The position numbers were made by a program, and so were the translations under genes. A DNA stretch of 32,698 nucleotides. Origin: a virus. Positions 17,453-28,766 of the stretch are shown piece after piece. Every line of letters begins with the position of its first letter. Positions within the stretch are counted from its first letter, which is position 1. Location: IMG/VR virus record IMGVR_UViG_3300009496_000035, positions 1 to 32,698 of that record; one strand, given 5' to 3'. Below the pieces are notes generated by a model. The model was not told the DNA's origin and did no database searches. It saw only the letters and a list, made by a program, of their open reading frames with translations.

Positions 17453-17665
17453 TTATAGTGATAAAATTGTCTTCTCGTTTGCTTCGATTGTCTTCTGTAT
17501 TAAATCAGTGTCATTGAAGTATAAATCCAATAGGCTTTTATAAGACTTTATAGTATCCCATTCTAAGTCTGTTAGGTCGTAGTTTTTATCGTTCCACTTT
17601 GTTACAAGTGATATAAGCATTTTTAGAGTTTCGTTGTTTGCTTTGTAGATTTCTTTTAAAGTCAT
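17453..17665 (-). CDS. Small helical protein (70 aa), unknown, from a family-I promoter
   Basis: A 70-residue protein, MTLKEIYKANNETLKMLISL ... FNDTDLIQKTIEANEKTILSL, with regular heptad-like hydrophobics suggesting helices. A copy of the phage promoter family I (17702-17738) lies just upstream, with a predicted transcription start about 30 bases before the ATG, and a terminator (17429-17444) follows the stop, so it appears to be a one-gene transcript. A regulatory or host-takeover role is possible but not shown. Confidence 0.55.
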   Translation of the reverse strand: MTLKEIYKANNETLKMLISLVTKWNDKNYDLTDLEWDTIKSYKSLLDLYFNDTDLIQKTIEANEKTILSL

Positions 17666-17701
17666 AATGTTTATTTTTAGTGTTTGTTATTATTTACACT
17701 T

Positions 17702-17738
17702 CAAAGATACAATGGTTATTTAGTTAAACCTGAGCTTT
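17702..17738 (-). promoter_or_regulatory. Promoter family I, copy A, before the 70-aa gene
   Basis: Coding strand: AAAAGCTCAGGTTTAACTAA, then 10 bases, then TATCTTTG (-7 element of Bacteroidota promoters). Transcription should start about 30 bases before the ATG at 17665. Confidence 0.75.
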
Positions 17739-17739
17739 T

Positions 17740-17910
17740 TTAATCTTTTTTTGAATTATTTTGCATCTGCTTCTTTATCAGTCTTTTACGATGTCTCTGA
17801 TCTAGTATTCTTTTGCACCTGCTGAGGTGTTTGTTAGGAAACCAGGTAAAGTTAAGCAGTATATGCTCCAATTCCATAGTAGTACATTTATTTAAGTCTT
17901 TATCTGTCAT
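17740..17910 (-). CDS. Small basic protein (56 aa), unknown
   Basis: A 56-residue frame, MTDKDLNKCTTMELEHILLN ... RCKRILDQRHRKRLIKKQMQ, starting one base after the stop of the GIY-YIG gene. The second half is strongly basic (Arg/Lys/His), which would fit nucleic-acid binding. Its stop lies right next to the upstream element of the promoter at 17702-17738. No family recognised; accepted because of tight packing and coding-like composition. Confidence 0.5.
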   Translation of the reverse strand: MTDKDLNKCTTMELEHILLNFTWFPNKHLSRCKRILDQRHRKRLIKKQMQNNSKKD

Positions 17911-17911
17911 A

Positions 17912-18274
17912 TTAATTATATCCTATATTATGTAAGTATCTTTCAGTAGCTAAAGCCTCTCTTTTAGTTTTAAAAGCAGCTACCACCTCATATCCTAGTA
18001 TGTGTCTGCCTTGGCTTTTATGGTTCCTCATTCTTATACTGGGTTGTGTCGTTATTCCTATATAGTGATCCTCAGGCAGATAGTATAATGTATAAAAATC
18101 GTTTCTCTGAGACTCAATATAAGCCTTTATTTTATCTTTAGACTTGGCTCTATATGTCTTAGACTGAGTATTTATGCATTCTTTACATACATAAGACAGC
18201 CCGTCTTTTCTAGTTTTATCTTTGTTAAATAAACCTTTGTCTTTTATTGCATTGCATTTTGTACATTCCTTCAT
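17912..18274 (-). CDS. GIY-YIG nuclease-like protein with N-terminal zinc-binding motif
   Basis: A 120-residue protein. Residues 4-33 carry two Cys pairs, CTKC and CKEC, spaced about 22 residues apart, a probable small zinc finger. The second half matches the GIY-YIG fold: FYTLYYLPEDHYIGITT (about 60-76) gives the two Tyr-containing strands, with Arg residues in PSIRMRNHK following and a Glu in EALATERYLH near the C-terminus as metal ligand. Such proteins are free-standing homing or repair-type endonucleases, or nicking enzymes in phages. It sits in a run of very small genes. The target is unknown. Confidence 0.65.
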   Translation of the reverse strand: MKECTKCNAIKDKGLFNKDKTRKDGLSYVCKECINTQSKTYRAKSKDKIKAYIESQRNDFYTLYYLPEDHYIGITTQPSIRMRNHKSQGRHILGYEVVAAFKTKREALATERYLHNIGYN

Positions 18275-18276
18275 GT

Positions 18277-18414
18277 TTATATAGCGTTGTCTATTTTCTC
18301 TATTATATGTCTAAGCTGTGATCTTTCAAATTGACCTATTAATTTTTCATCTATATGAAGGGTAAAATAATCTTTAGTAATTGCGGGCTTAATTATAATC
18401 TGTAAGTCTTTCAT
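18277..18414 (-). CDS. Small protein (45 aa), unknown
   Basis: A 45-residue frame, MKDLQIIIKPAITKDYFTLH ... RSQLRHIIEKIDNAI, with a beta-beta-alpha-like pattern. It starts one base after the stop of the preceding 37-residue gene and ends 2 bases before the GIY-YIG start. No recognised family; accepted on packing and composition. Confidence 0.5.
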   Translation of the reverse strand: MKDLQIIIKPAITKDYFTLHIDEKLIGQFERSQLRHIIEKIDNAI

Positions 18415-18415
18415 G

Positions 18416-18529
18416 TTATTTAGTTTTAAGGTTTAAAATTCTTTTGTTAATTGCTTTACGTCTTTTACTGCATGGCAGCTTATCTGCAATCTGTTGTAGT
18501 TTCTGTATTATCTGTTTAGTTGTTCTCAT
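18416..18529 (-). CDS. Small basic protein (37 aa), unknown
   Basis: A 37-residue frame, MRTTKQIIQKLQQIADKLPC ... AINKRILNLKTK, helical and basic. Its ATG overlaps the stop of the 81-residue gene by four bases (ATGA), a coupling seen repeatedly in this cluster. No family recognised. Confidence 0.45.
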   Translation of the reverse strand: MRTTKQIIQKLQQIADKLPCSKRRKAINKRILNLKTK

Positions 18530-18771
18530 TTCTGTGTGCGTTTATTATAGTAATGTAGATAGATCTCCTCTACCTTCTCTGAGTGCTCATGCTGCTTATA
18601 TACCTCAGTACCTACATGCTTAGCGTTACCGATCTCCAGGACCAATCTAACATAAGCTAGATTCCTTGTAGTCTTTCCTGTCTTATGTGTATAATACTGT
18701 TTAATAGGTTCAGCATATACCCTCAGATGGTTTCCTTTTAAGGCCCAACTCATGGCTTTTAAGCCTTTCAT
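18526..18771 (-). CDS. Small basic protein (81 aa), unknown
   Basis: An 81-residue protein, MKGLKAMSWALKGNHLRVYA ... LHYYNKRTQK, very basic, with strands RVYAEPIKQYYTHKTG and LAYVRLVLEIGNAKHVGT. It overlaps the stop of the upstream 44-residue gene by ATGA and the next gene by ATGA. The composition suggests nucleic-acid binding, but no motif supports a specific role. Confidence 0.5.
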   Translation of the reverse strand: MKGLKAMSWALKGNHLRVYAEPIKQYYTHKTGKTTRNLAYVRLVLEIGNAKHVGTEVYKQHEHSEKVEEIYLHYYNKRTQK

Positions 18772-18902
18772 TGCTTTTGACTTATTCTAGTGACCCCTAT
18801 GCGACCATTGCGGTAATGCTTTACCAATAGTTGTGTATCTAGTTCTACGACCTTATACGGCCTTATAGATAGCTTTACGAGTAATCTGTTATATATATTC
18901 AT
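18768..18902 (-). CDS. Small basic protein (44 aa), unknown
   Basis: A 44-residue frame, MNIYNRLLVKLSIRPYKVVE ... HYRNGRIGVTRISQKQ. It overlaps the upstream gene by 14 bases and the downstream gene by ATGA. Basic, with a likely beta-strand content. Function unknown. Confidence 0.45.
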   Translation of the reverse strand: MNIYNRLLVKLSIRPYKVVELDTQLLVKHYRNGRIGVTRISQKQ

Positions 18903-19020
18903 TTGCTTTTAATTTAAGGGTTAGTAATTGATTCTCTAAGGTCAGTCTGTTAACCTCTTCTCTAAGGGCTAATATAGCCATTTCTTGATAGTCTAGTAGT
19001 AATTCTGTTTTAGTGTCCAT
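18889..19020 (-). CDS. Small helical protein (43 aa), unknown
   Basis: A 43-residue frame, MDTKTELLLDYQEMAILALR ... RLTLENQLLTLKLKANEYI, with Leu-rich heptads that suggest a short coiled coil. Its ATG overlaps the stop of the preceding 48-residue gene by one base (TAATG). Could form a dimer or pair with a partner protein. No family recognised. Confidence 0.5.
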   Translation of the reverse strand: MDTKTELLLDYQEMAILALREEVNRLTLENQLLTLKLKANEYI

Positions 19021-19166
19021 TATATTGTTGTTTTAAGTTCGTTCATATCTGCTATATACTTCTTATACTTTGCTACCCTCTCTAGGTCTGCAAAGTCTCC
19101 TAAAGATAACTCATAGTTAATAGTCTCTAACGCTCTCTCTATTCCTTTGTTGATTTCTTGTAACAT
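19020..19166 (-). CDS. Small helical protein (48 aa), first gene of small-gene operon
   Basis: A 48-residue frame, MLQEINKGIERALETINYEL ... RVAKYKKYIADMNELKTTI, all helical. It follows a host-type promoter (19197-19229) whose predicted transcription start lies about 24 bases upstream, and is the first gene of the operon running to about 17740. Its stop overlaps the next ATG (TAATG). Function unknown. Confidence 0.5.
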   Translation of the reverse strand: MLQEINKGIERALETINYELSLGDFADLERVAKYKKYIADMNELKTTI

Positions 19167-19196
19167 AGTTTTTATATTTAGTTGATTTGTTTTTTG

Positions 19197-19229
19197 TAAA
19201 GATACAACTAATTAAATGTACCTACCAAA
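19197..19229 (-). promoter_or_regulatory. Host-type promoter for the small-gene operon
   Basis: TTTG (19229-19226), 21 bases, TATCTTTA (19204-19197), with a predicted start about 24 bases before the ATG at 19166. It lies in the 126-base stretch after the large terminase stop. Confidence 0.55.
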
Positions 19230-19292
19230 CAATTATGCAACTTTTTTTAAAATAAAATGAAAATAAAATGTAAGTAGCTGAGGTGTAGCTGA

Positions 19293-20510
19293 TTAGTTAA
19301 TGAAGTATTTACCTGCATTAGGATTGCTGAGGTTATATGATATAAAATACCTGATCCCATCCAATAAATGGTTAAAATCGTCAATTGCAACCTCTTTGCC
19401 ATCCTTCCAAACGTAATTGTTTAGCTCTGTAATAAGGTTATTAGATCCCTGATCTACAAATAGCTTGTAATCCTGCATAAGAGCGATACCCAAGTTAATA
19501 GATCCCTGTCCTTTAATACTAGGCTTTATGTTAAGGCCATAGTTAGACTTAAGCTCATGCAATAGCCGAGGTTCAGCACTGTCCCCTATAGTAAGCGTAT
19601 TAGGGTACTTTAAGAGCTTCTGAGCAATATCTGAAGTAGTTAGCCCTGTAGCGTATATAATCTCTTTAAGATAGATCTCTTTACGTTTAACGTTTATAGA
19701 TACTAATGTACCTGCGGTTGCATCATTCGAGAAGCCAAAATCTAAGCCTATACCATAGTGATCACCATTAGGATCAAATCTTTTAACCTCCCAATTAGTA
19801 AAAATAACACCATGGGCCACATCACGCCACCCTCCAAGGATTTGCGCTTTGTAGTCATCAGGGCGCTCTCTTTTCATCCTGTCTAAGTTAGCCAAGAATG
19901 TTTTATCTAAGTGCTTCTCATTATCTAAGTAGGTTGTATGTATATAGGTAGTGTCGCCTTCTGTGGTATTCTCACCACCCTGTAAGCCTCTACGTTGGAA
20001 AAACCTATCATATATCCAATGCGCTTTGGTAGTGGGGTTCATTACCATTATAACACGGTTCTGTGCCTCCTTAGATCTTACTGATAGATCAATCTTATCA
20101 AATAGTAAAGGATCAGGCATTTCTTCTGCCTCATCGAGTATCCATGTGCTTATACCATTCAAAGACTTAAGTGCAGCTGTCTGTGTACCCTGTCCTACCT
20201 TTAGACCTCTAAAGTATATCTTGTTACCTGTAAGCTTATTAGTTATGTCTGTCTTGTTTATAATGAAGTCATTATGTAAACCCATGATCTCAATCTTCTC
20301 ATTCATCTCAGGTATAATAGAAGTAGATGCTGAGGTCATTGTATAGCGTGTAAATAGGATATTGTGTCCCTTCTCATAAGTGAGTAGCAATATCATTGTA
20401 GATATACTATAGGACTTACTAGAGCCACGTCCCCCTGTAATCATATAGTAACGCGAATTACTAAGAAACAAAGGCCTATACTTAGGGTTTAAAGTTATGC
20501 CGTTACTCAT
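19293..20510 (-). CDS. terL: Terminase large subunit
   Basis: A 405-residue protein from the ATG at 20510. An in-frame TTG at 20516 is less likely, because the ATG gives the ATGAGTAA overlap with the small subunit's stop. The ATPase domain has Walker A GGRGSSKS (about residues 26-33) and Walker B WILDEAEE (about 123-130) with the catalytic Glu. The nuclease domain has Asp in GLDFGFSND (about 257), GDSAE (about 310) and HLLDGIRY (about 384), an RNase-H-like triad. It resembles PBSX/Terminase_3-type enzymes and is short but complete. It cuts and pumps DNA into the procapsid through the portal. The gene is separated from the structural genes by the small-gene operon. Confidence 0.9.
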   Translation of the reverse strand: MSNGITLNPKYRPLFLSNSRYYMITGGRGSSKSYSISTMILLLTYEKGHNILFTRYTMTSASTSIIPEMNEKIEIMGLHNDFIINKTDITNKLTGNKIYFRGLKVGQGTQTAALKSLNGISTWILDEAEEMPDPLLFDKIDLSVRSKEAQNRVIMVMNPTTKAHWIYDRFFQRRGLQGGENTTEGDTTYIHTTYLDNEKHLDKTFLANLDRMKRERPDDYKAQILGGWRDVAHGVIFTNWEVKRFDPNGDHYGIGLDFGFSNDATAGTLVSINVKRKEIYLKEIIYATGLTTSDIAQKLLKYPNTLTIGDSAEPRLLHELKSNYGLNIKPSIKGQGSINLGIALMQDYKLFVDQGSNNLITELNNYVWKDGKEVAIDDFNHLLDGIRYFISYNLSNPNAGKYFIN

Positions 20511-20808
20511 CCTCAAAAGAGATTAAGCCTCTTAGAGTAATATTGTGATCTACTGATCCTGAAGTGTTAAGATCAATCTCCTGCTTAGGTAGTCCTGCTC
20601 TATACTTTAGGAACAACTCAATAGCTCTTTGGTCTCCTGACTCAATGCGTTCTAGTAGCTTCTGTATTACTACGTCAATGTCAATATTGTCGTCTAGGAT
20701 CTGTCTTATGTTTATAAGCTCCCCATTTGAAGGACGCCCACTGTTTGGTCTTGGACCTCCCCAATTATCTGATCCCTGTGCTCCGTTTGCTTTGCTCTTG
20801 CCTGCCAT
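20503..20808 (-). CDS. terS: Terminase small subunit
   Basis: A 101-residue protein. The N-terminus SDNWGGPRPNSGRPSNG (about residues 13-29) is the Gly/Pro/Arg-rich start common in small terminases of this type. A helical region follows (INIRQILDDNIDIDVVIQKL, then RIESGDQRAIELFLKYRAGL, about 33-73). It recognises the packaging site and hands DNA to the large subunit. It overlaps the large subunit gene by 8 bases. A TGTTTTTAAATAAA motif lies 16 bases upstream of the ATG. The DNA-binding part is not a clear HTH, so recognition is inferred from linkage. Confidence 0.75.
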   Translation of the reverse strand: MAGKSKANGAQGSDNWGGPRPNSGRPSNGELINIRQILDDNIDIDVVIQKLLERIESGDQRAIELFLKYRAGLPKQEIDLNTSGSVDHNITLRGLISFEDE

Positions 20809-20823
20809 GTTGATTTATGTTGG

Positions 20824-20837
20824 TTTATTTAAAAACA
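20824..20837 (-). promoter_or_regulatory. 14-mer motif TGTTTTTAAATAAA, copy 6, before terS
   Basis: Identical 14-mer, ending 15 bases before the small terminase ATG, preceded by the AT-rich end of the upstream intergenic stretch. Confidence 0.6.
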
Positions 20838-20876
20838 ATCTAAATTAGCTTTAGTAATCAATGTATTGATTTTCCA

Positions 20877-21185
20877 TCATATACCGAATATTTTCATTTT
20901 AGACTCTAGATCCTTTATCTTAAGCTCAGCCACCTCTAGGGCAGCTTCTGCTTTGCGTGCTCTCACTACAGCGTTGTTTCTGTCATTACGTGCCTCAGAC
21001 ATAAGCCTAGTAAAGCTGTAATCCCTTAGCTCTAAGCTGTTTACATACACAAAGATCCTAAGGAATGCTGACTGCATATAGATCAGCTCCTCGTTGTCAC
21101 TCTTTGCTGTCCACTTAATTAATAGATCACATATAAGGTTTTGATCAGCACCCTTCTGTAGGCTTTCAAATGTCGGATTGGTCAT
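20877..21185 (-). CDS. Hypothetical coiled-coil protein (102 aa)
   Basis: A 102-residue protein, MTNPTFESLQKGADQNLICD, with a C-terminal coiled coil (about 62-98, MSEARNDRNNAVVRARKAEA and EVAELKIKDLESKM). Its start overlaps the upstream 72-residue gene by 20 bases. It is the last gene before the terminase pair. No function can be assigned. Confidence 0.5.
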   Translation of the reverse strand: MTNPTFESLQKGADQNLICDLLIKWTAKSDNEELIYMQSAFLRIFVYVNSLELRDYSFTRLMSEARNDRNNAVVRARKAEAALEVAELKIKDLESKMKIFGI

Positions 21186-21384
21186 GTCTTATATAGCAGT
21201 TAAATTGTTTGTCTGTGTCATTATAATCTCTTAAGGCGTCTCTTATTCCTATAGCAGCCTCGAAGTCATTTATCTCGGCTGCCTCTTGTTCTGCTACTAA
21301 GACTCTTTCCTGAGGTACTCCTAAGCTCAAAGCGTATAAGGCCCCTACGTAATTAAAGTGTCTTGTCTCCTGATCTGTCATCAT
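21166..21384 (-). CDS. Hypothetical protein (72 aa)
   Basis: A 72-residue acidic helical protein, MMTDQETRHFNYVGALYALS ... AEQEAAEINDFEAAIGIRDA. Its ATG overlaps the stop of the RecE-like nuclease gene by four bases (ATGA); a second ATG follows directly. Function unknown; translational coupling suggests it belongs with the nuclease. Confidence 0.5.
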   Translation of the reverse strand: MMTDQETRHFNYVGALYALSLGVPQERVLVAEQEAAEINDFEAAIGIRDALRDYNDTDKQFNCYIRHDQSDI

Positions 21385-22196
21385 AGTGTCCCTTCTTTGT
21401 GGTACTGTGATAAATCTATTAATTCGTCAACAAAAAATGCTTTGTATATAGCGATTGCTGCTTCTAGTTTATCCTTACCTGATTGTAGTGTTTGCTCTGA
21501 GGCTTTAAATATACCTATATCTGTAGTGGTCTTATCTATTACTAACCAATAGAAGTCAGGCACGTTATAAAGTTGTGTATATAGGTAAGCTTGTAAGTCA
21601 TAGTCATATTTCTCTATAGTGAACTTAAACTGATTTACACTACTACCATTCTTTAACGTAATATCCTTAAGTCCGTCGTTAGTTGTCTTAACGTCCGCTA
21701 CATATTCTCTTTTTTTGAATATATCTGCTTTACTTCTTACAGCTAGTCCGTCTACTTCTACTAGGGCAGGTGTTTCTGTCTCTGCTCCCTTCATAAATGA
21801 TACACAGCTATCGTTCTGTAAGAATGCTGCAGCTATTCTAGAGGCCATATACTTCTCTTTAAGCGTATAGGTGCTCTCAGCTCCGTTCTGCTCTTTAGCT
21901 AGTTTCCATTTAGTGGTATTCTTACTAGAGGTATCTACAAAGGTAAATTGTCCGTACTTCTCAGGTTCTAGTATCTCAGTATGTACTAGCTTACCGTCTC
22001 TTAATGCTTGAGTCTCTGTCATGCCTTTACGCTTCATGTGAGCGAACCACTTAGGGCTCTTTAGTAGCCACTTCATTGTACTATATGATAATACTCTATC
22101 TAGGTTAAGGTACTTATAGTAATATTCGTCTCCTACCATGTTATCTAATGTCTCAGATAGGTCTACTGTCTCGTGATTTAATAGTGTTACTTTCAT
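21381..22196 (-). CDS. PD-(D/E)XK exonuclease, RecE / exonuclease VIII-like
   Basis: A 271-residue protein with the full pattern of the RecE-type family: GKLVHTEILEPEKY (about 68-81), KADIFKK (156-162) with Asp158, VADVKTT (166-172) giving the Asp-x-Lys pair (Asp168, Lys170), and YDLQAYLYTQLY (199-210). These residues form the metal-dependent nuclease core. It would resect double-stranded ends and work with the ERF annealing protein (28309-27749) in phage recombination. It is coupled by TAATG to a 34-residue gene upstream and by ATGA to a 72-residue gene downstream. Confidence 0.85.
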   Translation of the reverse strand: MKVTLLNHETVDLSETLDNMVGDEYYYKYLNLDRVLSYSTMKWLLKSPKWFAHMKRKGMTETQALRDGKLVHTEILEPEKYGQFTFVDTSSKNTTKWKLAKEQNGAESTYTLKEKYMASRIAAAFLQNDSCVSFMKGAETETPALVEVDGLAVRSKADIFKKREYVADVKTTNDGLKDITLKNGSSVNQFKFTIEKYDYDLQAYLYTQLYNVPDFYWLVIDKTTTDIGIFKASEQTLQSGKDKLEAAIAIYKAFFVDELIDLSQYHKEGTL

Positions 22197-22300
22197 TAGT
22201 CTATGGCGTTATATAAGTTAGTATCAATGTCTAGGTCATCAGCCCAATTTTCAAGATCGTATTGAGTGTCTATAGCGTTGTATAAGTCTGAGTAATTCAT
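22196..22300 (-). CDS. Acidic micro-protein (34 aa) coupled to the RecE-like nuclease
   Basis: A 34-residue frame, MNYSDLYNAIDTQYDLENWA then DDLDIDTNLYNAID, highly acidic (no Lys or Arg) and containing the duplicated phrase LYNAID at residues 6-11 and 29-34. Its stop overlaps the nuclease ATG by one base. An acidic, DNA-mimic-like partner of the nuclease is conceivable, but this is speculation. Confidence 0.5.
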   Translation of the reverse strand: MNYSDLYNAIDTQYDLENWADDLDIDTNLYNAID

Positions 22301-22301
22301 A

Positions 22302-22430
22302 TTAGTTTTTGTTTAAGTGAATTGAAAGGTTTGTCTCTGCTTGGTCTACTTCTCCTAATGTAATACGTCCGTAGCGATAATCTACGTAGGCGATGTTTCT
22401 TAATAGTTGTAATGTGATTAATTTGTTCAT
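22302..22430 (-). CDS. Small protein (42 aa), first gene after a family-I-like promoter
   Basis: A 42-residue frame, MNKLITLQLLRNIAYVDYRY ... QAETNLSIHLNKN. It starts about 24 bases after the predicted start of transcription from the degenerate promoter at 22461-22497 and ends one base before the acidic 34-residue gene. It begins the operon that contains the RecE-like nuclease. Function unknown. Confidence 0.5.
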   Translation of the reverse strand: MNKLITLQLLRNIAYVDYRYGRITLGEVDQAETNLSIHLNKN

Positions 22431-22460
22431 AGTTATAGTATTTAGTGATTAATGTTTTTG

Positions 22461-22497
22461 TAAAAGTAATTATGATTATTGGTTAAAAAAAGCTTTT
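22461..22497 (-). promoter_or_regulatory. Promoter family I, degenerate copy D
   Basis: AAAAGCT, then four bases, TTTAACCAA, 10 bases, TACTTTTA. It keeps the AAAAGCT and TTTAACnAA elements and the 10-base spacing but diverges elsewhere. It precedes the small-gene/RecE-like operon at 22430. Confidence 0.5.
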
Positions 22498-22536
22498 TAT
22501 GATTTATTTTTAATTTAATTTGCAAGGGTCTAATTA

Positions 22537-23163
22537 TTAAGCTATTGGATATAAATATCTTATCACTTCTGTACGGGGTTTCTTTAGCTTAACGTATGTT
22601 AGGGCATCAAATTCATCTCTAGCCTCTATATCTAAGTCATCTCTTTGCTGTCTAGCTTCGTCTTGAGCCATCATGGACCTCTCTACCTTTATAAATGTAC
22701 TAAGCTGATTGTTCATGAAAGAGTCAATACGATCCTGTGGAATGCCTTCTAGCATGTCCTCAATAGTTTGAACCCTTACAGCTTCTAGATCAGCTATTCT
22801 AGCCTTAAGGTCTACATTCTCGCTATATAGTACTTTATTATGCATCTCATAAGCGTCTAAGATAGTCTCAGAGGCATCCTTACAGTCTTTAAAATCTAAT
22901 CCACCTATTAGGCCATGTATTTCATTTACTCGTCTCTGAAGACCTGTATCCCATTCTATTTCTATCTTAAATTTCTTTATGCCGTGCATGATAGTTGCAT
23001 GATCTTTATTTAAGTATTTACCTATAGCGTAAAATGTCTGTCCTTGAGCTCTAGCAAAGTGATAAAATAAATTTCTAGCTTTTACATACTCTGTCTGCCT
23101 AGTGATCTTCATTAGATCCAAACCTGTTGAGGTTTCTACAGCTTTTCTTATAATGTCTAACAT
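22537..23163 (-). CDS. DnaA domain IV-like replication initiator protein
   Basis: About 208 residues from the ATG at 23163 (an in-frame ATG at 23202 would overlap the previous gene by 22 bases and adds only Lys/Asn-rich residues). The N-terminal 75 residues match the DNA-binding domain IV of bacterial DnaA: VKARNLFYHFARAQGQTFYA, then IGKYLNKDHATIMHGIKK, where DHATIMHG corresponds to the DnaA signature DHTTVxHA that reads DnaA boxes. The rest is an acidic coiled coil (about 100-170) with no ATPase domain. A perfect DnaA box lies in the putative origin at 29863-29872, so this protein may bind there and recruit or displace host factors. The operon ends here. Confidence 0.75.
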   Translation of the reverse strand: MLDIIRKAVETSTGLDLMKITRQTEYVKARNLFYHFARAQGQTFYAIGKYLNKDHATIMHGIKKFKIEIEWDTGLQRRVNEIHGLIGGLDFKDCKDASETILDAYEMHNKVLYSENVDLKARIADLEAVRVQTIEDMLEGIPQDRIDSFMNNQLSTFIKVERSMMAQDEARQQRDDLDIEARDEFDALTYVKLKKPRTEVIRYLYPIA

Positions 23164-23180
23164 ATTTTTATAGTTTTTTT

Positions 23181-23417
23181 TTATAAATTTTCTTGTACCC
23201 ATTTAGCCCCGAATATAGAAGCCTGTTTTTTAGTTTCAAAATACTCACTCACATATATATAGTCCTGATCATTTCCGTTGTAAAACTCTATGATTATATT
23301 CCAAGAGTCGCTCCCCATTCCGTTAGACTTGAAAGGGTTTACCACGTCTATAGTTAAGCCCCCGTGTGATAGTCCGTAATGAGATTTGAATTTTCTTTTT
23401 AAATTTAAAGTAGTCAT
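23181..23417 (-). CDS. Small protein (78 aa), first gene from a family-I promoter
   Basis: A 78-residue protein, MTTLNLKRKFKSHYGLSHGG ... FETKKQASIFGAKWVQENL. I chose the ATG at 23417. The earlier TTG at 23435 lies inside the -7 element of the promoter at 23433-23465 and upstream of the predicted transcription start. The pattern VSEYFETKKQASIFGAKWVQ looks like a small alpha/beta domain. It is followed by the DnaA-like gene. Function unknown. Confidence 0.5.
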   Translation of the reverse strand: MTTLNLKRKFKSHYGLSHGGLTIDVVNPFKSNGMGSDSWNIIIEFYNGNDQDYIYVSEYFETKKQASIFGAKWVQENL

Positions 23418-23432
23418 AGTGTTTCTTTTGAG

Positions 23433-23465
23433 CAAAGATATAAACCTTTATTAGTTAAACCTGAG
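23433..23465 (-). promoter_or_regulatory. Promoter family I, copy B
   Basis: CTCAGGTTTAACTAA, 10 bases, TATCTTTG. The predicted start is just before the ATG at 23417, which shows that the in-frame TTG at 23435 cannot be used. It follows a strong terminator (23493-23512). Confidence 0.75.
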
Positions 23466-23480
23466 GAATATTGAATTATT

Positions 23481-23512
23481 TTTAAAAAAAAAGCCCTACA
23501 TCTCTGTAAGGC
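23481..23512 (-). terminator. Strong terminator before the DnaA-like operon
   Basis: GCCTTAC-AGAGAT-GTAGGGC, 7-bp stem with one G-T pair, then nine T. Ends the operon that closes with the membrane micro-protein. Confidence 0.8.
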
Positions 23513-23538
23513 CTAATTTCACTAGGGTTTAAACAAAA

Positions 23539-23634
23539 CTAATAATTACCTAAAGCAAACAATATGCCTAAGGAAACTATTCCTATACACAGGATCTTCA
23601 CTACTACTTCAATTGCTTTTTCATCTTTATTCAT
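23539..23634 (-). CDS. Single-pass membrane micro-protein (31 aa)
   Basis: A 31-residue frame. A charged start (MNKDEKAIEV) is followed by one hydrophobic segment VVKILCIGIVSLGILFALG (about residues 11-29). Its ATG overlaps the preceding stop by one base (TAATG), and a strong terminator (23493-23512) follows the stop, so it is the last gene of the operon. It may affect the host membrane, for example in superinfection exclusion; this is speculation. Confidence 0.55.
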   Translation of the reverse strand: MNKDEKAIEVVVKILCIGIVSLGILFALGNY

Positions 23635-23771
23635 TATGCTTGTTTTTGGATTTCATTAATTAAATTAGCAACCTCATTGTAGGGCCTAGTAGATAAGTAT
23701 CCTAGTATTTGGTTAACGGACTCAACCGTTAGGTTTATGTTTTTTTCTTCTTTTTCTTTTACTTTTTTCAT
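23634..23771 (-). CDS. Small phage protein (45 aa)
   Basis: A 45-residue frame with a Lys/Glu-rich start and NLTVESVNQILGYLSTRPYN then EVANLINEIQKQA. The phrase 'VNQILGYLSxRPYxEVxxLIxxIQ' resembles short proteins seen in many phages, of unknown function. It is 3 bases after the diphosphohydrolase gene stop and coupled by TAATG to the membrane micro-protein. Confidence 0.55.
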   Translation of the reverse strand: MKKVKEKEEKNINLTVESVNQILGYLSTRPYNEVANLINEIQKQA

Positions 23772-23774
23772 ATA

Positions 23775-24179
23775 TCAATATTTATTGGTTAAAAATCTCT
23801 CTAGGCCCGCTAAGGCCCTCCATGCAACTTTTGCAAGGTGTAATTGTCCGTCAGTGTCTAAAGGATCAATGCTGTGATCTATTAGATGTCTAGTCAAAGC
23901 GTCAAGCTCGTCCTTAGACTTATCCATGTCCCAATGTAACGGCATGTTGGGATGGTGTTGATCATTACCTGCTTGCGAGCACTTAGCAACCTCCTTAATA
24001 GCGTTGGGGAAGTACTTAAGCACTCCTGAAAATACAGGGATTTTTTTTCTATTTGCTGCTTCTTGATTACTAAATAGTGGATTGTCTACCATCTCAGTAA
24101 TGTCATTTGATACACTTTGGTAAAACCTAGAGCAGCTCCCTAGCTTATCACCTTCGCATGTGCAATTAAGACAATACAT
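23775..24179 (-). CDS. dATP/dGTP diphosphohydrolase-like protein (DUF5664)
   Basis: A 134-residue protein. The core FSGVLKYFPNAIKEVAKCSQ followed by NDQHHPNMPLHWDMDKSKDE (about residues 50-90) and HLAKVAWRALAGLERFL (about 114-130) fit the all-helical nucleotide pyrophosphohydrolase domain found in many phages, known as the dATP/dGTP diphosphohydrolase N-terminal family. The first 16 residues hold four Cys (MYCLNCTCEGDKLGSC), possibly a zinc knot. It would hydrolyse dNTPs to dNMP plus pyrophosphate and thereby shape the nucleotide pool. No PurZ-like gene is present, so a 2-aminoadenine genome is not indicated. It is coupled to the metallophosphoesterase gene by TAATG. Confidence 0.6.
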   Translation of the reverse strand: MYCLNCTCEGDKLGSCSRFYQSVSNDITEMVDNPLFSNQEAANRKKIPVFSGVLKYFPNAIKEVAKCSQAGNDQHHPNMPLHWDMDKSKDELDALTRHLIDHSIDPLDTDGQLHLAKVAWRALAGLERFLTNKY

Positions 24180-24904
24180 TATAAGACCATTAATTCATTA
24201 ACAGCTGTCTTACCTCCTAAAATAACAGCGCACCCAATTGCAGGCTTTTTTCCTACTTTCATATAAGCCATAGCATAACTTTTAGCGTCTATGCCACAAC
24301 CTACTTGAGTTCCAAATACTCTAGAGTTAGCTCCTACAAAATACTCAGTGTAGGCCTGGGTGTGTAAATGGCCCTGAACCGTTGATCTCATATCTGACCT
24401 GGCTTTTGTCTTAGCTGTACCAGCTTCACCATGGATGTATAAAACGCCGTCAATCTCTACGTCTGTTACGAATCTCCACTTAGGTGTATTTAGCACTTCT
24501 GAGTAATCCTTAATCCACTGTTTTGGCACGCCTCCTGATTGTGCCTTACGCATTATAATTCTATCGTGATTACCTACAGTAACGTGAGCGTCGGGCCATC
24601 TGTGGTAATATCTTTCTAGTCTCTTTATAGCTAGCTCCAGCTCCTGGCCACCTCCTAGGCCGTCCGCATCCGTCTCATGATATGAGCTGTAATGGTTATC
24701 TATCACGTCACCTATGAAAACCACTTGGTTACAGTTGTAACGCTCGTACACTTCAACACAGTGATCAAAATAACTGTCTAGGTCAAATGGGCTATGTAAA
24801 TCTCCAACTACAAGAACTCTAGACTCTTTGTTATTAAAGAACTCAAAAGAGGTTAATTTAGCCCCCTTAAGCCTTGGCCTAACATCTTTGTTTTTACTTT
24901 CCAT
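24179..24904 (-). CDS. Calcineurin-like metallophosphoesterase
   Basis: A 241-residue protein with the complete metallophosphoesterase set: GDLHSPFD (Asp35, His37), GDVIDN (Asp66), GNHD (Asn112-His113), HGE (His158) and GHLH (His179, His181). These bind two metals. It does not have the SbcD/Mre11 cap domain in an obvious form. Substrates of phage versions are nucleic acids, cyclic nucleotides or phosphoproteins; the sequence does not decide. It is translated together with the dNTP diphosphohydrolase (TAATG), which suggests a linked role in nucleotide or nucleic-acid turnover. Confidence 0.8.
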   Translation of the reverse strand: MESKNKDVRPRLKGAKLTSFEFFNNKESRVLVVGDLHSPFDLDSYFDHCVEVYERYNCNQVVFIGDVIDNHYSSYHETDADGLGGGQELELAIKRLERYYHRWPDAHVTVGNHDRIIMRKAQSGGVPKQWIKDYSEVLNTPKWRFVTDVEIDGVLYIHGEAGTAKTKARSDMRSTVQGHLHTQAYTEYFVGANSRVFGTQVGCGIDAKSYAMAYMKVGKKPAIGCAVILGGKTAVNELMVL

Positions 24905-25139
24905 AATTTACTTTAGGTTTTTTTTTAGATTCAACCTCCTTTGCGTCAATTATATTTGATACATGCAACAACTCGGACGCTAGTCTTTTGTATTGCTCAG
25001 GATCCTCTTTGTCTTTGCCTACGCTGTGAAGCCAATTAAGACGGTTTGCTAACTGATCTGCTAGATTTACTAGAGACGGCAGCTTCATTTTTCTAAGTTG
25101 GTTACTGTTTAGCTCCTTCATATATTTTATATAAGTCAT
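24894..25139 (-). CDS. Hypothetical helical protein (81 aa or 75 aa)
   Basis: An 81-residue protein, MTYIKYMKELNSNQLRKMKL ... SNIIDAKEVESKKKPKVNYGK. A second ATG at 25121 would give 75 residues and fewer bases of overlap with the previous gene. It is helical and ends in a basic tail. It overlaps the metallophosphoesterase start by 11 bases. No recognised function. Confidence 0.5.
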   Translation of the reverse strand: MTYIKYMKELNSNQLRKMKLPSLVNLADQLANRLNWLHSVGKDKEDPEQYKRLASELLHVSNIIDAKEVESKKKPKVNYGK

Positions 25140-25560
25140 CTATTAAATTAACCAAACAAGAACTACAATTAGTAACAACTCTCTTGCTTTTAAATAAGTG
25201 ATTGTAAATAGCTACCAACTCGTTTTGTACCTTAGAACTAACACTCGTAGGCCTTGGGTTAAAAAAACTTTCTAAGAAATCAAACTGATCATTTTCTAAA
25301 TTGTTTAGCTTCCTGTTAGGAAACAACTTATTTAGCTTCTCAGCTCTTGCAGAACAGCCACAGTCATCTACTACTGCGTCAACAACCGCCTTAATACCTG
25401 TAACCTCTGTAAAAGCCGTTACAATGTCTCCTAGGCCTTCTCTACCTGCTTCTCCTAGTATGTCTAGTACTACAGATTTTTTAACTCTAAGCTTCTGAGC
25501 TATCTTACCTGCTTTAAAACCTTCTTGGTGCAATTCAAATACTTTATCGTTAATATCCAT
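25102..25560 (-). CDS. HTH-containing Cys-rich protein (152 aa)
   Basis: A 152-residue protein from the ATG at 25560; the longer frame start at 25617 lies in the TTG of the upstream promoter and cannot be used by that transcript. The N-terminus FELHQEGFKAGKIAQKLRVK then KSVVLDIL (about residues 8-35) looks like a helix-turn-helix. A following segment GLGDIVTAFTEVTGIKAVVD and CGCSARAEKLNKLFPNRKLN (about 42-85) is a repeated theme in Bacteroidota phage proteins of unknown function. CSSC near the C-terminus could bind zinc with CGC. Promoter 25587-25617 lies just upstream, with a predicted start about 20 bases before the ATG. Confidence 0.55.
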   Translation of the reverse strand: MDINDKVFELHQEGFKAGKIAQKLRVKKSVVLDILGEAGREGLGDIVTAFTEVTGIKAVVDAVVDDCGCSARAEKLNKLFPNRKLNNLENDQFDFLESFFNPRPTSVSSKVQNELVAIYNHLFKSKRVVTNCSSCLVNLIDDLYKIYEGAKQ

Positions 25561-25586
25561 TTTTAAGGGTTTAATTATTAATATTG

Positions 25587-25617
25587 CGAATATATGTAAA
25601 ACAATTAACATACACAA
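25587..25617 (-). promoter_or_regulatory. Host-type promoter TTG-N20-TATATTCG before HTH gene
   Basis: TTG (25617-25615), exactly 20 bases, TATATTCG (25594-25587). The same -7 octamer and the same spacing as at 27573-27603. Confirms the ATG at 25560 as the start of the HTH gene. Confidence 0.65.
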
Positions 25618-25634
25618 GCTTTTTTGTATTTATT

Positions 25635-26216
25635 TTATATTAAATCATAGTCTTTGTTGATGAAATCCTGATAATCTTCATGTAGTTGCTCAGCTATCAA
25701 CATCTTTGATCTTTTAATACTTAAATATATGGTCCTTATTCCTATCCCTGACTCCTCAGAAATTGTCCTGAAGCTTTTGCCTGAATCTAAGTAAGTTTTA
25801 AATAGTTTATAGTCAAACCAACTAGAGTTATTTTTTACAATTTGATACATTTTTAACTCTATAGCCTCTACTCCTAATTTCTCCTGATCAACACCCTCAT
25901 CTATAAAATTATATTTCTCCTCGAAGTCATATTGACTCCCTAGATAATTATATCTTAAATTAGACTTCTTTTTAATTGCATTAATAATTATAGATCTTAA
26001 AGTAAAAAACATATAGCCCCTAGATGCTTTGCCTTTGGTGTTAATTATTTTGTCAAAAAGATCATCATACCTAGATAGTCTTAAGTATGCCTCTTGCACA
26101 AAGTCTTCAGCGTAGTTGTATACTTCATTATTGTTGTTAGCTATGGCCCTAGCCATCTCTATATACTCGCTGTGATGTTGTGACAATATTTGTAATGCCT
26201 TGTTTTTGTTATTCAT
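25635..26216 (-). CDS. Sigma-70 family RNA polymerase sigma-like factor
   Basis: A 193-residue protein with region-2 features, NYAEDFVQEAYLRLSRYDDL (about 34-53) and SRGYMFFTLRSIIINAIKKK (about 65-84), and a region-4-like helix-turn-helix SFRTISEESGIGIRTIYLSI (about 148-167). Length and order fit an ECF-type or phage sigma factor, although the FVQEAY motif is only loosely like the canonical DxxQe. It begins one base after the helicase gene. It may redirect host RNA polymerase to the phage promoters whose upstream elements repeat in this genome. This link is inference. A simple transcription regulator with the same fold is an alternative. Confidence 0.7.
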   Translation of the reverse strand: MNNKNKALQILSQHHSEYIEMARAIANNNNEVYNYAEDFVQEAYLRLSRYDDLFDKIINTKGKASRGYMFFTLRSIIINAIKKKSNLRYNYLGSQYDFEEKYNFIDEGVDQEKLGVEAIELKMYQIVKNNSSWFDYKLFKTYLDSGKSFRTISEESGIGIRTIYLSIKRSKMLIAEQLHEDYQDFINKDYDLI

Positions 26217-26217
26217 T

Positions 26218-27153
26218 TTAAAAAGCTATTTCGGGGTTCATATTAGGTATGTCTATACTAGCAACTTTTGAGTGATCAATAACGTCTTTACCTGCTACAC
26301 TAAATGCCACATTACCTGCTTGCATTCGCAAACTTATTGGCGCGTCCATTGATGTAGGCCGTCCACCCGTCTCAGTCTCTTTGACCTTTACTACGTGAAT
26401 ATCTGAAACCATCCATCTTGTAGGATGCTGTGTGTATCTGTGTATTGATACAACGTCATCGGCTCTGTTTCCCCATTTACCACCTCCTTCAACATCTGCC
26501 ATACTGCAAGGCTGAGGCAATCCTTCAAATTCGTGACCGCTAGGATGTTTTCTTCTGAGTGATTCAGTAACTGCGTGAGCGTTTAGCCAAATTGTCACAT
26601 TGTTTTTTTTACAAAATAATCTCATTTCACTTGCTACTTGATAGTCATATTCATGACCTCCAACGGACCTCAATAAGGTAGGATCTTTAATAAGTGAGTT
26701 GTAAGGATCTATAAGTAATCCATCGTAATGCCAAACATCCAATATTTGTTTAGCTTCTGACATTAGGCTTCTAGCGCTGTATAGGCTTTCGACTTTTATA
26801 ATCTTGAAGTGATCATTAATCCACTCCATTTCAGTCTCTATCTGAGCGTCAGGTATCTTTTGAATCGGTACACCTGTTTTAAACTCTAATAATTTTCTAG
26901 CAATGCTGTAGTCGCTATTTTCTGAGCTAAATATTAGCCATTTTAGATCGTGCTTTAAAGCGTAAGCCATTTGTAAGTATAATATCACTGTAGTCTTTCC
27001 TGTGTTGGCGTGTCCTACGCAAATGTTGAAAGCTCCTTTTTTATATCTTAAAAACTGATCAACCTCCTCAATACCTAATCCATACCCCTGCTCAATCCTG
27101 TCATATTTTACATCATATAACTTCTCTTTAATTAATTTAATATCTGTTAACAT
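26218..27153 (-). CDS. DnaB-like replicative helicase (RecA-fold ATPase)
   Basis: A 311-residue protein. The RecA-like core has Walker A GHANTGKTT (about 47-55), FSSENS with the catalytic Glu78 (about 75-80), Walker B LLIDP (about 146-150), the sensor-like LNAHAVTESLR (about 190-200), and MADVEGGGKWGNRADDVVSI followed by HR (about 219-239). This last stretch is the DnaB/TWINKLE-type arginine-finger region. There is no primase or N-terminal DnaB domain. It should act as the hexameric replication helicase, or less likely as a Sak4-type recombinase; the ADDVVSIHR stretch favours the helicase. It follows a terminator, and the sigma-like gene follows. Confidence 0.75.
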   Translation of the reverse strand: MLTDIKLIKEKLYDVKYDRIEQGYGLGIEEVDQFLRYKKGAFNICVGHANTGKTTVILYLQMAYALKHDLKWLIFSSENSDYSIARKLLEFKTGVPIQKIPDAQIETEMEWINDHFKIIKVESLYSARSLMSEAKQILDVWHYDGLLIDPYNSLIKDPTLLRSVGGHEYDYQVASEMRLFCKKNNVTIWLNAHAVTESLRRKHPSGHEFEGLPQPCSMADVEGGGKWGNRADDVVSIHRYTQHPTRWMVSDIHVVKVKETETGGRPTSMDAPISLRMQAGNVAFSVAGKDVIDHSKVASIDIPNMNPEIAF

Positions 27154-27181
27154 CTTAGGGCCCTTTAATAGTTAGTACTAT

Positions 27182-27210
27182 GAAAATAAAGGGAGGCTTT
27201 TACACCTCCC
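27182..27210 (-). terminator. Terminator after SSB-like gene
   Basis: GGGAGG(T)-GTAAAA-(G)CCTCCC with TTTATTTTC after it. The six-base loop GTAAAA is shared with the terminator at 28332-28354. Confidence 0.75.
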
Positions 27211-27218
27211 ATATAACA

Positions 27219-27515
27219 CTAAAACGGCAAGTCAGGAGTTTCTCTACCTGCTAAAGATTGCTCATTAGCTTCTGTCTGTTTTTCAACACGCTCAGCTGCT
27301 TGAATCTTTCCGTCCGTCCAAACCACTTTTCCGTTTCCTATAAAATGCTTAGCCTCCTTAGCTTCTCTTTGCTCTTTGGTTTGCTCCATTGAAGCAGAAG
27401 CGTTTTGTCCGTAAGCGTTAGTTTCGTCATTTACAAAGACAGTGACGTTAGCCCATCCTTTGTCGTTGAATTGAATTTTTTCTTTGTTAATTCCTACCGA
27501 TATAATTGTACTCAT
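27219..27515 (-). CDS. Small SSB-like single-stranded DNA-binding protein
   Basis: A 98-residue protein, MSTIISVGINKEKIQFNDKG ... VFVNDETNAYGQNASASMEQ, then KHFIGNGKVVWTDGK (about 55-71), and an acidic end reading GRETPDLPF. The final DLPF resembles the C-terminal tip of SSB proteins (usually DDIPF) that recruits replication enzymes. The body pattern is that of short ssDNA-binding proteins common in Bacteroidota phages. Its promoter (27573-27603) and a strong terminator (27191-27210) flank it, so it can be expressed as a separate transcript. It should coat ssDNA for the helicase and the ERF protein. Confidence 0.6.
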   Translation of the reverse strand: MSTIISVGINKEKIQFNDKGWANVTVFVNDETNAYGQNASASMEQTKEQREAKEAKHFIGNGKVVWTDGKIQAAERVEKQTEANEQSLAGRETPDLPF

Positions 27516-27572
27516 AATTTATGCGCCTCTCTTAAAGGCTTGGGTTTTTGTTGTGGCTTTATTGCCGTTTTG

Positions 27573-27603
27573 CGAATATACGCAATTTTTAAATAATATG
27601 CAA
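27573..27603 (-). promoter_or_regulatory. Host-type promoter TTG-N20-TATATTCG before SSB-like gene
   Basis: TTG (27603-27601), exactly 20 bases, TATATTCG (27580-27573) fit the flavobacterial consensus. The mRNA leader to the ATG at 27515 would be about 50 bases with a short hairpin. Confidence 0.65.
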
Positions 27604-27675
27604 TCTTTTTACTACTTTTATTTTACCTACTTAATTTATAAACTACTTCATAGTCTCTTGTAAGCAATACCAGTG

Positions 27676-27747
27676 CTAGCTCCTCATTTCATGGATACAA
27701 CTAAATAATACCGCAGCTGCTAATGTTATTAAAAATATTTTATTCAT
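27676..27747 (-). CDS. Micro-lipoprotein (23 aa)
   Basis: A 23-residue frame: MNKIFLITLAAAVLFSC followed by IHEMRS. It has a positively charged start, a hydrophobic stretch and a perfect lipobox LFSC with Cys17, so the mature peptide would be a lipid-anchored heptapeptide. It starts one base after the ERF gene stop. Such small lipoproteins in phages can block superinfection or serve as spanin-like lysis factors; the sequence does not decide. Because it is so short it could also be a chance frame, but the complete lipobox is striking. Confidence 0.5.
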   Translation of the reverse strand: MNKIFLITLAAAVLFSCIHEMRS

Positions 27748-27748
27748 G

Positions 27749-28309
27749 TTATTGGTTTTTAGTAATATTAATTAATGAGTCCTTTACCTTGTCATTTAAT
27801 ATATACTTAGCCTCTATTTGATCCACAGTAACCTTGCCGTTTTTTACAGCTTGTAATGCCTTCAGGTAGTTTTCACTAGTCATTGCTAGATTAGGCTTAG
27901 CCGATACAGCTGTTTTAAGGCCTTTTCCGTGCGTGTTAGTTGCGTCAGCGTCTTTGGTGTCATCTAATAAGAATAAACCTCCTAGAGCGTATTTACGAGC
28001 GTATGAGCTAGATGCTCCTGAAGCTTGTGCTTTATCCATTCCTTTGCGGTTAAGATCTAGGCCTGCCTGAGCTTTTACAAAGAAGCTTCTGTCTCCATCT
28101 GTTACAGTTGCTGTAGATTCTACAAAAAGAGATCCACCTACTTCAATTACCTCATCTGAAATACTAAGGAATAATCCATGCTTATAGCATATCGGCTTAG
28201 CAGCTTCAAAAATATCTTCCGCGTTTCTGTAGCTGTATTTCCCAAAAGAGTTGTATTGACTCTTAGGTGCTTTAAGCTCGTTTTGAATTTTTACTAGTTT
28301 GTCAATCAT
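27749..28309 (-). CDS. ERF family single-strand annealing recombinase
   Basis: A 186-residue protein. YNSFGKYSYRNAEDIFEAAK (about 19-38) and KAQASGASSSYARKYALGGL followed by FLLDDTKDAD (about 93-122) are the two hallmark segments of ERF proteins. The C-terminal part is less conserved, with ALQAVKNGKVTVDQIEAKYI. It anneals complementary single strands. It would cooperate with the RecE-like nuclease (22196-21381) and the SSB-like protein. The gene starts after a terminator (28339-28354) that ends the upstream transcript. No dedicated promoter is evident; its expression may rely on read-through. Confidence 0.85.
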   Translation of the reverse strand: MIDKLVKIQNELKAPKSQYNSFGKYSYRNAEDIFEAAKPICYKHGLFLSISDEVIEVGGSLFVESTATVTDGDRSFFVKAQAGLDLNRKGMDKAQASGASSSYARKYALGGLFLLDDTKDADATNTHGKGLKTAVSAKPNLAMTSENYLKALQAVKNGKVTVDQIEAKYILNDKVKDSLINITKNQ

Positions 28310-28331
28310 AATTTATATATTTAATAGTTAA

Positions 28332-28354
28332 AAAAAGTGGGGCTTTTACACCCC
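28332..28354 (-). terminator. Terminator after the 111-aa gene
   Basis: GGGG(T)-GTAAAA-(G)CCCC, then ACTTTTTTT. Same loop GTAAAA as at 27182-27210. Confidence 0.7.
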
Positions 28355-28361
28355 GTTAGGG

Positions 28362-28697
28362 TTAGTTAAAAAGTTTAGTGTCTTCAGCAACCATGTCAAC
28401 CATTTTTTCAGAAGCATTGTTTTTAGCTAGGAACTTTAAAGCCTTAACTAGTTTCTTAAGATCTTTGTTATCTTTATCGTTGTTCATGAACATGTTGTGA
28501 GTTACATCTGTAGCCTTTACATTAAGACGCCCACAAAAGAATAATTCTTTTTTAGCAAACAAGTCAGTTACATTCCCGTTAAATGTGTAAGTGTGCTCAG
28601 CTTTAAAAGCCTCTACAACTAACTCGGCTGCGTTGTATAATTTTACCTCTCTTTTTGCTTGATCTAATTGTTGTGTTAATGTATTTAAGTTTTTCAT
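28362..28697 (-). CDS. Hypothetical protein (111 aa), first gene from a family-I promoter
   Basis: A 111-residue protein, MKNLNTLTQQLDQAKREVKL ... HNMFMNNDKDNKDLKKLVKA. The ATG at 28697 is preferred. An upstream in-frame start at 28736 lies in the -7 element of the promoter at 28734-28766. The gene is followed by a terminator, so it is a one-gene unit. Helical, Lys/Asp-rich; no recognised domain. Confidence 0.55.
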   Translation of the reverse strand: MKNLNTLTQQLDQAKREVKLYNAAELVVEAFKAEHTYTFNGNVTDLFAKKELFFCGRLNVKATDVTHNMFMNNDKDNKDLKKLVKALKFLAKNNASEKMVDMVAEDTKLFN

Positions 28698-28733
28698 GGT
28701 GTTGATTTTATGTGTTAGCGTTATTGCTTGGTA

Positions 28734-28766
28734 CAAAGATACAGACTCTTTTTAGTTAAACCTGAG
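28734..28766 (-). promoter_or_regulatory. Promoter family I, copy C
   Basis: CTCAGGTTTAACTAA, 10 bases, TATCTTTG, preceded by AAAAAAG like copy A. Drives the 111-residue gene; its transcript starts about 30 bases before the ATG at 28697. Confidence 0.75.

Follow-up and report, generated by a model that had tools for sequence, protein, structure and literature searches.

The virus record IMGVR_UViG_3300009496_000035 in IMG/VR is a 32,698-base sequence of an uncultured marine virus of Bacteroidota bacteria. It was analyzed at its full length and is referred to here as the window. All of its genes that were treated as real are on the minus strand. The window contains a family of three promoter sites, the CAGG class, in which a 15-base element, CTCAGGTTTAACTAA, is followed after 10 bases by a -7 element, TATCTTTG. 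Six things are evident from sequence: the promoter family itself, the constant geometry of its members, the loss of the usual TTG to another word, the conservation of the 15-mer ahead of unrelated genes, a split in the types of genes served and the co-occurrence of the element with a DnaA-like protein. The reading favored here, to which we assign about an even chance, is that these are phage promoters that combine the host -7 element with a phage activator that replaces -33 recognition, and that the DnaA-like protein is the best candidate for that activator.

The pattern CTCAGGTTTAACTAA-N10-TATCTTTG has exactly three matches in the window, all without mismatches and all on the minus strand (Table 1). 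It does not occur in any of 100 dinucleotide-shuffled versions, even when up to three mismatches are permitted. The spacer is 10 bases long at every site, and its sequence varies from site to site. TATCTTTG fits the -7 consensus TAHHTTTG of the Bacteroidota primary sigma factor at all three, and TATCTTT(G/A) is the -7 element in 23 of the 29 catalogued entries of this class, one of which is a false site inside a coding sequence (locus L101). TTG is absent near -33 from all three sites, so that the -33 TTTG or TTG of Bacteroidota primary-sigma promoters is not present; its position is taken by the 15-mer, which contains TCAGG. By eye, CTCAGGTTTAACTAA is asymmetric and lacks the two-fold symmetry of a palindromic operator. 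A first-pass annotation of this DNA had described a conserved phage promoter family with these three parts and had remarked on the missing TTG, and both descriptions hold, with three exact copies and none in shuffled sequence.

Promoter positions and predicted starts were set by the spacing of Flavobacterium johnsoniae. As given in the available part of the F. johnsoniae study, TAHHTTTG is at -12 to -5 and transcription starts 4-5 nucleotides past the -7 element (PMC6847099), rather than the 6-8 bases anticipated in the first-pass annotation. With this spacing the 15-mer spans about -37 to -23 and is centered near -30. The promoters also correct two start codons, as had been proposed: the TTG codons that had been listed as starts (28736 and 23435) are the final three bases of TATCTTTG, and ATG codons are found at 28697 and 23417. 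The further proposal that each site heads a short operon is borne out clearly only for the 28734 unit, whose single gene has a terminator-like hairpin downstream (by eye); the other two units are not clearly short. The 23433 promoter is upstream of a 78-amino acid (aa) gene and the DnaA-like gene.

Table 1. Promoters and genes of the window considered in this analysis. Promoter starts are predictions; blank cells indicate that no value was assigned.
Feature	Coordinates	Strand	Details
CAGG-class promoter	28734..28766	-	15-mer 28752-28766; spacer AAAGAGTCTG; -7 TATCTTTG 28734-28741; predicted start 28728-28729
CAGG-class promoter	23433..23465	-	15-mer 23451-23465; spacer TAAAGGTTTA; -7 TATCTTTG 23433-23440; predicted start 23427-23428
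CAGG-class promoter	17702..17734	-	15-mer 17720-17734; spacer ATAACCATTG; -7 TATCTTTG 17702-17709; predicted start 17696-17697
TTT-class promoter (fourth site of the first-pass annotation)	22461..22508	-	TTTTTTTAACCAA; -7 TACTTTTA 22461-22468; predicted to drive a 42-aa gene
TTTGG-class (TTG-bearing) promoter, contrast class	19197..19244	-	-7 TATCTTTA 19197-19204
TTGC-class promoter of SSB-like gene, contrast class	27573..27620	-	-7 TATATTCG 27573-27580
TTGT-class promoter of HTH (helix-turn-helix) gene	25587..25634	-	-7 TATATTCG 25587-25594; near-palindrome TGTATGTTAATTGTTTTACATATA
DnaA-domain-IV-like protein (PF08299), best candidate reader	22537..23202	-	221 aa
Sigma-like protein, rival candidate	25635..26216	-	AlphaFold2 model resembles two-domain ECF (extracytoplasmic function) sigma factors
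HTH protein, rival candidate	25102..25560	-	152 aa; four invariant Cys
Orphan 111-aa gene	28362..28697	-	true ATG 28697; terminator-like hairpin downstream, ~28330-28354 (by eye)
Orphan 78-aa gene	23181..23417	-	true ATG 23417
Orphan 70-aa gene behind 17702 promoter	17453..17665	-	
Gene with N-terminal domain of dATP/dGTP diphosphohydrolase (PF18909)	23775-24179		E 7e-10

Conservation of the element extends well beyond the bases that define the class. It was measured on loci fetched by protein searches only, with the class defined by TCAGG alone. Among 16 distinct CAGG sites before 15 genes, identity is 0.93 at the next nine positions (22-30), compared with 0.63 in the spacer, 0.57 in the far flank and 0.41 in the leader. 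TTG-bearing promoters (65 genes) have an identity of only 0.41 across the nine bases downstream of TTG (positions 22-30). A larger, partly motif-chosen set of 28 promoters from 18 gene families and 16 loci agrees. The long element is therefore conserved just where TTG is lost, which supports the earlier suggestion that a trans-acting phage factor is its likeliest reader.

The promoter family is also present in the relatives that were compared, which are syntenic with the window. Close relatives that share the gene order but lack the motif, named at the outset as an observation that would count against the family, were not encountered. A first scan of IMG/VR yielded 30 stretches, judged by eye to hold 14 true sites and 16 chance or coding matches on the basis of CT before CAGG, a ten-base spacer and an A- or T-rich flank. 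A relaxed scan, in which most new stretches were discarded by eye as chance or coding, added L113 (same contig as L062), L116, L119 and L121 and extra sites in L020 and L029. The core read backward gave no hits with up to three mismatches in 1.02 Mb of fetched DNA, against 61 real hits, although this control is generous in that many loci were fetched by motif and some overlap. When 84,980 bacterial and archaeal genomes were scanned once for exact matches, no site was found, and an exonuclease relative, sought in the genome collection as a link to a host, was not found there. Nothing resembling the 40-nucleotide motif was found among the cultured phages of INPHARED (no record with 80% or more of the query covered), and the sigma-like protein had no match in that collection either. 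The Nonlabens phages P12024S and L, to whose terminase that of the window is 52% identical, have no CAGG site.

Promoter classes were assigned with author-defined regular expressions, slightly altered between scripts, and the filters overlook some sites, among them the window's 23433 site (missed by the A-tract filter) and its TTTGG and HTH promoters. In relatives, the -33 place is occupied by other words: TTTGG (T1), CTTGC or CTTGT (T2), TTTTTTTAACTAA (T3, the TTT class) and TTAGG (T5). TCAGG, the class of the 15-mer, is T4. Four classes occur within the window: CAGG (3 sites), TTT (22461), TTTGG (19197-19204) and TTGC/TTGT (SSB-like and HTH genes). The site at 22461-22497, previously taken for a degenerate copy of the CAGG family, is real yet belongs to the TTT class, a conserved sister of that family: L054, L140 and L141 have a nearly identical AAAAAGCTTTTTTTAACCAATAATCATAAT-TACYTTTA ahead of the same gene family. 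In L121 this gene family has a CAGG promoter ahead of it. An A-tract precedes nearly all promoter classes, and three types of spacer recur. Unrelated genes in the window and its relatives are also preceded by a small number of recurring leader types, TACCATAATCAAAAACAAATATT and TAGTGTAAATAAAAACAAACGCT among them. A sister group (L063-L066, L102 and L149) has TTAGG at the -33 place, and in the members where it was seen, L066 and L102, the DnaA-like protein is a 153-aa version with a TTAGG promoter upstream.

The classes differ in the genes that they serve. CAGG promoters precede small orphan genes and never SSB, Erf or HTH genes, whereas the TTGC/TTGT class accounts for 11/11 SSB, 7/7 Erf and 10/12 HTH promoters. 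With the false L101 site dropped beforehand, no gene family was found to be common to the CAGG and TTGC/TTGT classes, against a shuffled mean of 7.5; the CAGG class shares 4 families with the TTT class and 2 with the TTTGG class. A scan of 19 proteins encoded downstream of CAGG promoters against PHROGs, Pfam and PADLOC gave no convincing match. The 111-aa protein has a relative in L009 (40-41% identity) that is also behind a CAGG promoter. In relatives, the 78-aa gene is behind a CAGG, TTT or TTTGG promoter and is sometimes elsewhere in the genome.

The distribution of one protein family follows that of the promoters. In a set anchored on the exonuclease, which avoids choice by motif, 24 of the 51 loci have CAGG or TTT promoters. 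The long DnaA-like family is present in 21 of these 24 and in none of the other 27, and no other family found in at least 6 positive loci separates the two groups as well. Among 15 distinct long DnaA-like genes, 14 have a TTT (10) or CAGG (4) promoter as the closest one in the catalogue, 258-795 nucleotides upstream; the fifteenth gene is the window's copy, behind the 23433 promoter that the filter overlooked. Each gene in this set has at least 700 nucleotides of upstream sequence, and part of the set was fetched by motif.

A second set was anchored on the protein itself and consists of 31 distant loci fetched by the DnaA-like protein, whose terminase, where present, is ~42% identical to that of the window. 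The motif AACTA(A/G) at exactly -28 to -23 was found at 29/80 sites in the exonuclease clade with the DnaA-like protein, at 14/73 sites in the distant loci and at 1/127 sites in exonuclease relatives without the protein. After removal of near-copies the counts are 8/40, 5/30 and 1/93, respectively, and the distant loci differ from the relatives without the protein (p=0.003). In this reduced set the motif was absent at this position from 62 sites in 39 terminase relatives and from 60 sites in 35 loci sharing only the DnaA domain. The distant loci (group B: L183-L214, L187 excepted) and the DnaA-domain-only loci (group E: L215-L249) were split by match length, by eye. L187 (contig of L119), of the distant lineage, holds a CAGG promoter itself and was excluded from the distant-loci counts as it had been fetched by motif. 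The nearest DnaA-like proteins of cultured phages are those of Olleya phage Harreka_1, Cellulophaga phage Nekkels_1 and Flavobacterium phage tooticki6-1, which are short or partial matches, and AACTA(A/G) is found at 0/28 -7 sites in the stretches of these phages (one whole genome, two partial).

The two proteins proposed as readers in the first-pass annotation do not track the element in this way. In both the sigma-like and the HTH protein, the predicted recognition helix is almost the same whether or not a phage has the element, and several of the DnaA-domain-only loci, a group with no element at any of its 60 sites, encode homologs of both (E ~1e-25 and ~1e-30, respectively). On these grounds neither protein is the first choice as the reader; no co-variation of an ECF sigma factor with the element was found. 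Judged from these distributions, the DnaA-like protein, which had not been named before, tracks the element better than either. The HTH protein more likely controls the TTGT class, since its own promoter is of that class and contains a near-palindrome; its structural model has no clear match. The near-perfect inverted repeat TGTATGTTAATTGTTTTACATATA in this promoter looks like an autoregulatory operator, and a similar repeat occurs in relatives, e.g. L036.

Transcription from the sites, the binding of a protein to them, its effect as activation rather than repression and its identity are all inferred from these patterns. Host RNA polymerase with the primary sigma factor would hold TATCTTTG, the host's own half of the promoter. 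The asymmetric 15-mer, standing where the host -33 TTTG would be, would be bound by a phage protein, probably as a monomer, which would substitute for the missing contact with sigma region 4, much like MotA at the middle promoters of T4. The favored candidate binder is the DnaA-domain-IV-like protein, whose own gene is behind such a promoter in nearly every readable relative. What the promoters would drive is a variable collection of small orphan genes rather than the core genes of replication. That a dedicated phage factor reads the element is, on this comparative evidence, somewhat more probable than the opposite; that this factor is the DnaA-like protein is a tentative identification with clearly less than an even chance. 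Slightly more tentative still is the fuller proposal that a DnaA-domain-IV protein has become a promoter-specificity factor, reading TTAGTTAAA (the reverse complement of TTTAACTAA) at -30 and serving a private, self-regulated promoter class for swappable small host-takeover genes. It would then be a MotA-like system of separate origin.

Several observations weigh against the activator reading. Three positive loci lack the DnaA-like gene: L054 and L062, which have little upstream DNA, and L057, which has four TTT promoters in 7.3 kb with the usual slot covered. CAGG and TTT promoters fall largely within a single part of the exonuclease tree, and the link between the DnaA-like protein and the promoters could partly reflect descent; the test on distant loci appears to break this explanation only partly. 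Accessory genes have been exchanged between the exonuclease clade and a distant lineage (the 48-aa gene, L186), and promoters may have been carried along with them. The DnaA-like protein retains D-H-A-T, which we take to be the canonical DnaA recognition motif and which suits a plain replication initiator, and CTCAGGTTTAACTAA does not match the DnaA box TTATNCACA. The protein could equally be an ordinary initiator that shares an operon. DnaA boxes with up to one mismatch are not enriched in the window (36 found, 44 expected). CAGG, TTT and TTTGG promoters stand side by side in one phage (L026), and a wholesale switch of the -33 word within each phage is thereby rejected. No transcript or binding data for these phages were found. 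Finally, the -33 element is only weak in F. johnsoniae promoters, according to the available part of that study (PMC6847099), so the missing TTG alone is not odd.

This last point also favors an account without any special factor, in which host polymerase uses the perfect -7 element and the upstream A-tract, and the 15-mer is a sequence preferred by the phage and tuned for strength. The A-tract ahead of nearly all classes fits such an account, as does the service of the same gene families by CAGG, TTT and TTTGG promoters in different phages, as if these were interchangeable. We nevertheless regard it as unlikely: the nine-base stretch beyond -33 that is so much more alike in CAGG than in TTG promoters suggests another reader, as does the absence of the architecture from the host-side genomes in the one exact scan. 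Another possibility is that the 15-mer is an operator through which a phage repressor silences the genes after a short early burst. The 15-mer does overlap the -33 region, the position of the DnaA-like gene behind such a promoter would suit self-control, and many small genes are under one regulatory sequence, as in the archaeal virus SIRV2, where, in the part of the report available, an Aca-like protein is thought to repress early genes after their burst (PMC11065993). The site is single and asymmetric, however, and the sacrifice of the -33 match is better explained by an activator, which makes the operator quite improbable. We give little credence to the sigma-like protein as the reader of the element as its own -35. 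Its AlphaFold2 model (predicted local distance difference test score 74) has ECF sigma factors as best Foldseek matches (E ~0.02-0.1, probability up to 0.99), and many TTTGG, TTT and CAGG promoters have AAC at the same place; against this stand the near-invariance of its C-terminal recognition helix, the homologs in loci of the element-free group and a -7 element that matches the host primary sigma factor. Very unlikely is a recombination cassette, in which promoter stretches are copied between places or phages and the 15-mer is alike through recent sharing: the same promoter and leader do precede unrelated genes (AAAGTTGCTAAAAAGTTTGGTAGATACTTTAAGTTATGCG or a one-base variant in L005, L050, L056 and L141) and the three spacer types recur, but spacer, flank and leader vary while the 15-mer is constant, and copying accounts for the spread of the element, not its role.

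Some further features of the window and its relatives were noted. Just downstream of the terminase, a near-identical TTTGG promoter precedes different small genes in L005, L050, L053, L056 and L141; by sequence comparison, the promoter is kept and the gene swapped. The 48-aa gene (19020-19166) has an 85% identical counterpart in L186, although the terminase of that locus is just 43% identical; this appears to reflect a cassette exchanged recently between phage lineages. The gene carrying the PF18909 domain is possibly linked to nucleotide-pool or base-modification chemistry. Tail-fiber-like open frames run off both ends of the record (1-480; 31494-32696) in frames that differ across the ends, and bases, few or more, may be missing there.

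Replacement of half of a host promoter by a phage-only word is well known from T4 in Escherichia coli. No description of such an element in Bacteroidota phages was found among the listed matches from the open-licence literature, CTCAGGTTTAAC was not found in the papers matching either motif string, among the matches listed, and no DnaA-like phage transcription factor was found in the literature search. A phage element on a Bacteroidota primary-sigma promoter, linked to a DnaA-like protein, thus appears to be new within the literature searched. If the proposal is correct, the element and the DnaA-like protein together form a two-part test, and the pair would provide a means, specific to the phage, of switching expression in bacteria whose sigma factor is divergent. 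The element would also be a sequence tag for finding small orphan phage genes. It points at unknown genes in that the 19 proteins behind CAGG promoters lack a convincing family match, and by analogy these perhaps include counter-defense genes.

Known systems resemble the window's promoters in different respects. In halovirus HF2, repeated intergenic sequences are promoters and are conserved across the genus; that system is archaeal and reporter-tested, and its abstract describes no replaced core element (PMC8707807). The early/anti-defense promoter of SIRV2 likewise places many small, variable orphan genes under one regulatory sequence and includes a promoter-corrected start codon; as far as the available part of the report goes, it is an archaeal promoter (TATA and the B recognition element, BRE) with expression timing established, whereas early expression and a defense role of the genes here would be conjectural (PMC11065993). 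Bacteroidota primary-sigma promoters (-33 TTTG, -7 TAHHTTTG) share the -7 element and the short leaders, but here -33 TTTG is replaced by TCAGG within a 15-nucleotide conserved element. T4 middle promoters have a spacing of 12 +/- 1 rather than 10, and their sequence and host sigma factor differ; the MotA box, TGCTTtA, does not match CTCAGGTTTAACTAA. No relative of MotA or AsiA was found among the 10 window proteins scanned with Pfam, and the candidate here is DnaA-like. The likeness to T4 is one of outline, and membership is not claimed. In the available part of the T4 source, MotA sits at -30 and a good -10 is required (PMC2988021); there, as here, a strong match to the host's own downstream element is kept and an asymmetric phage element centered at -30 takes the place of the upstream one.

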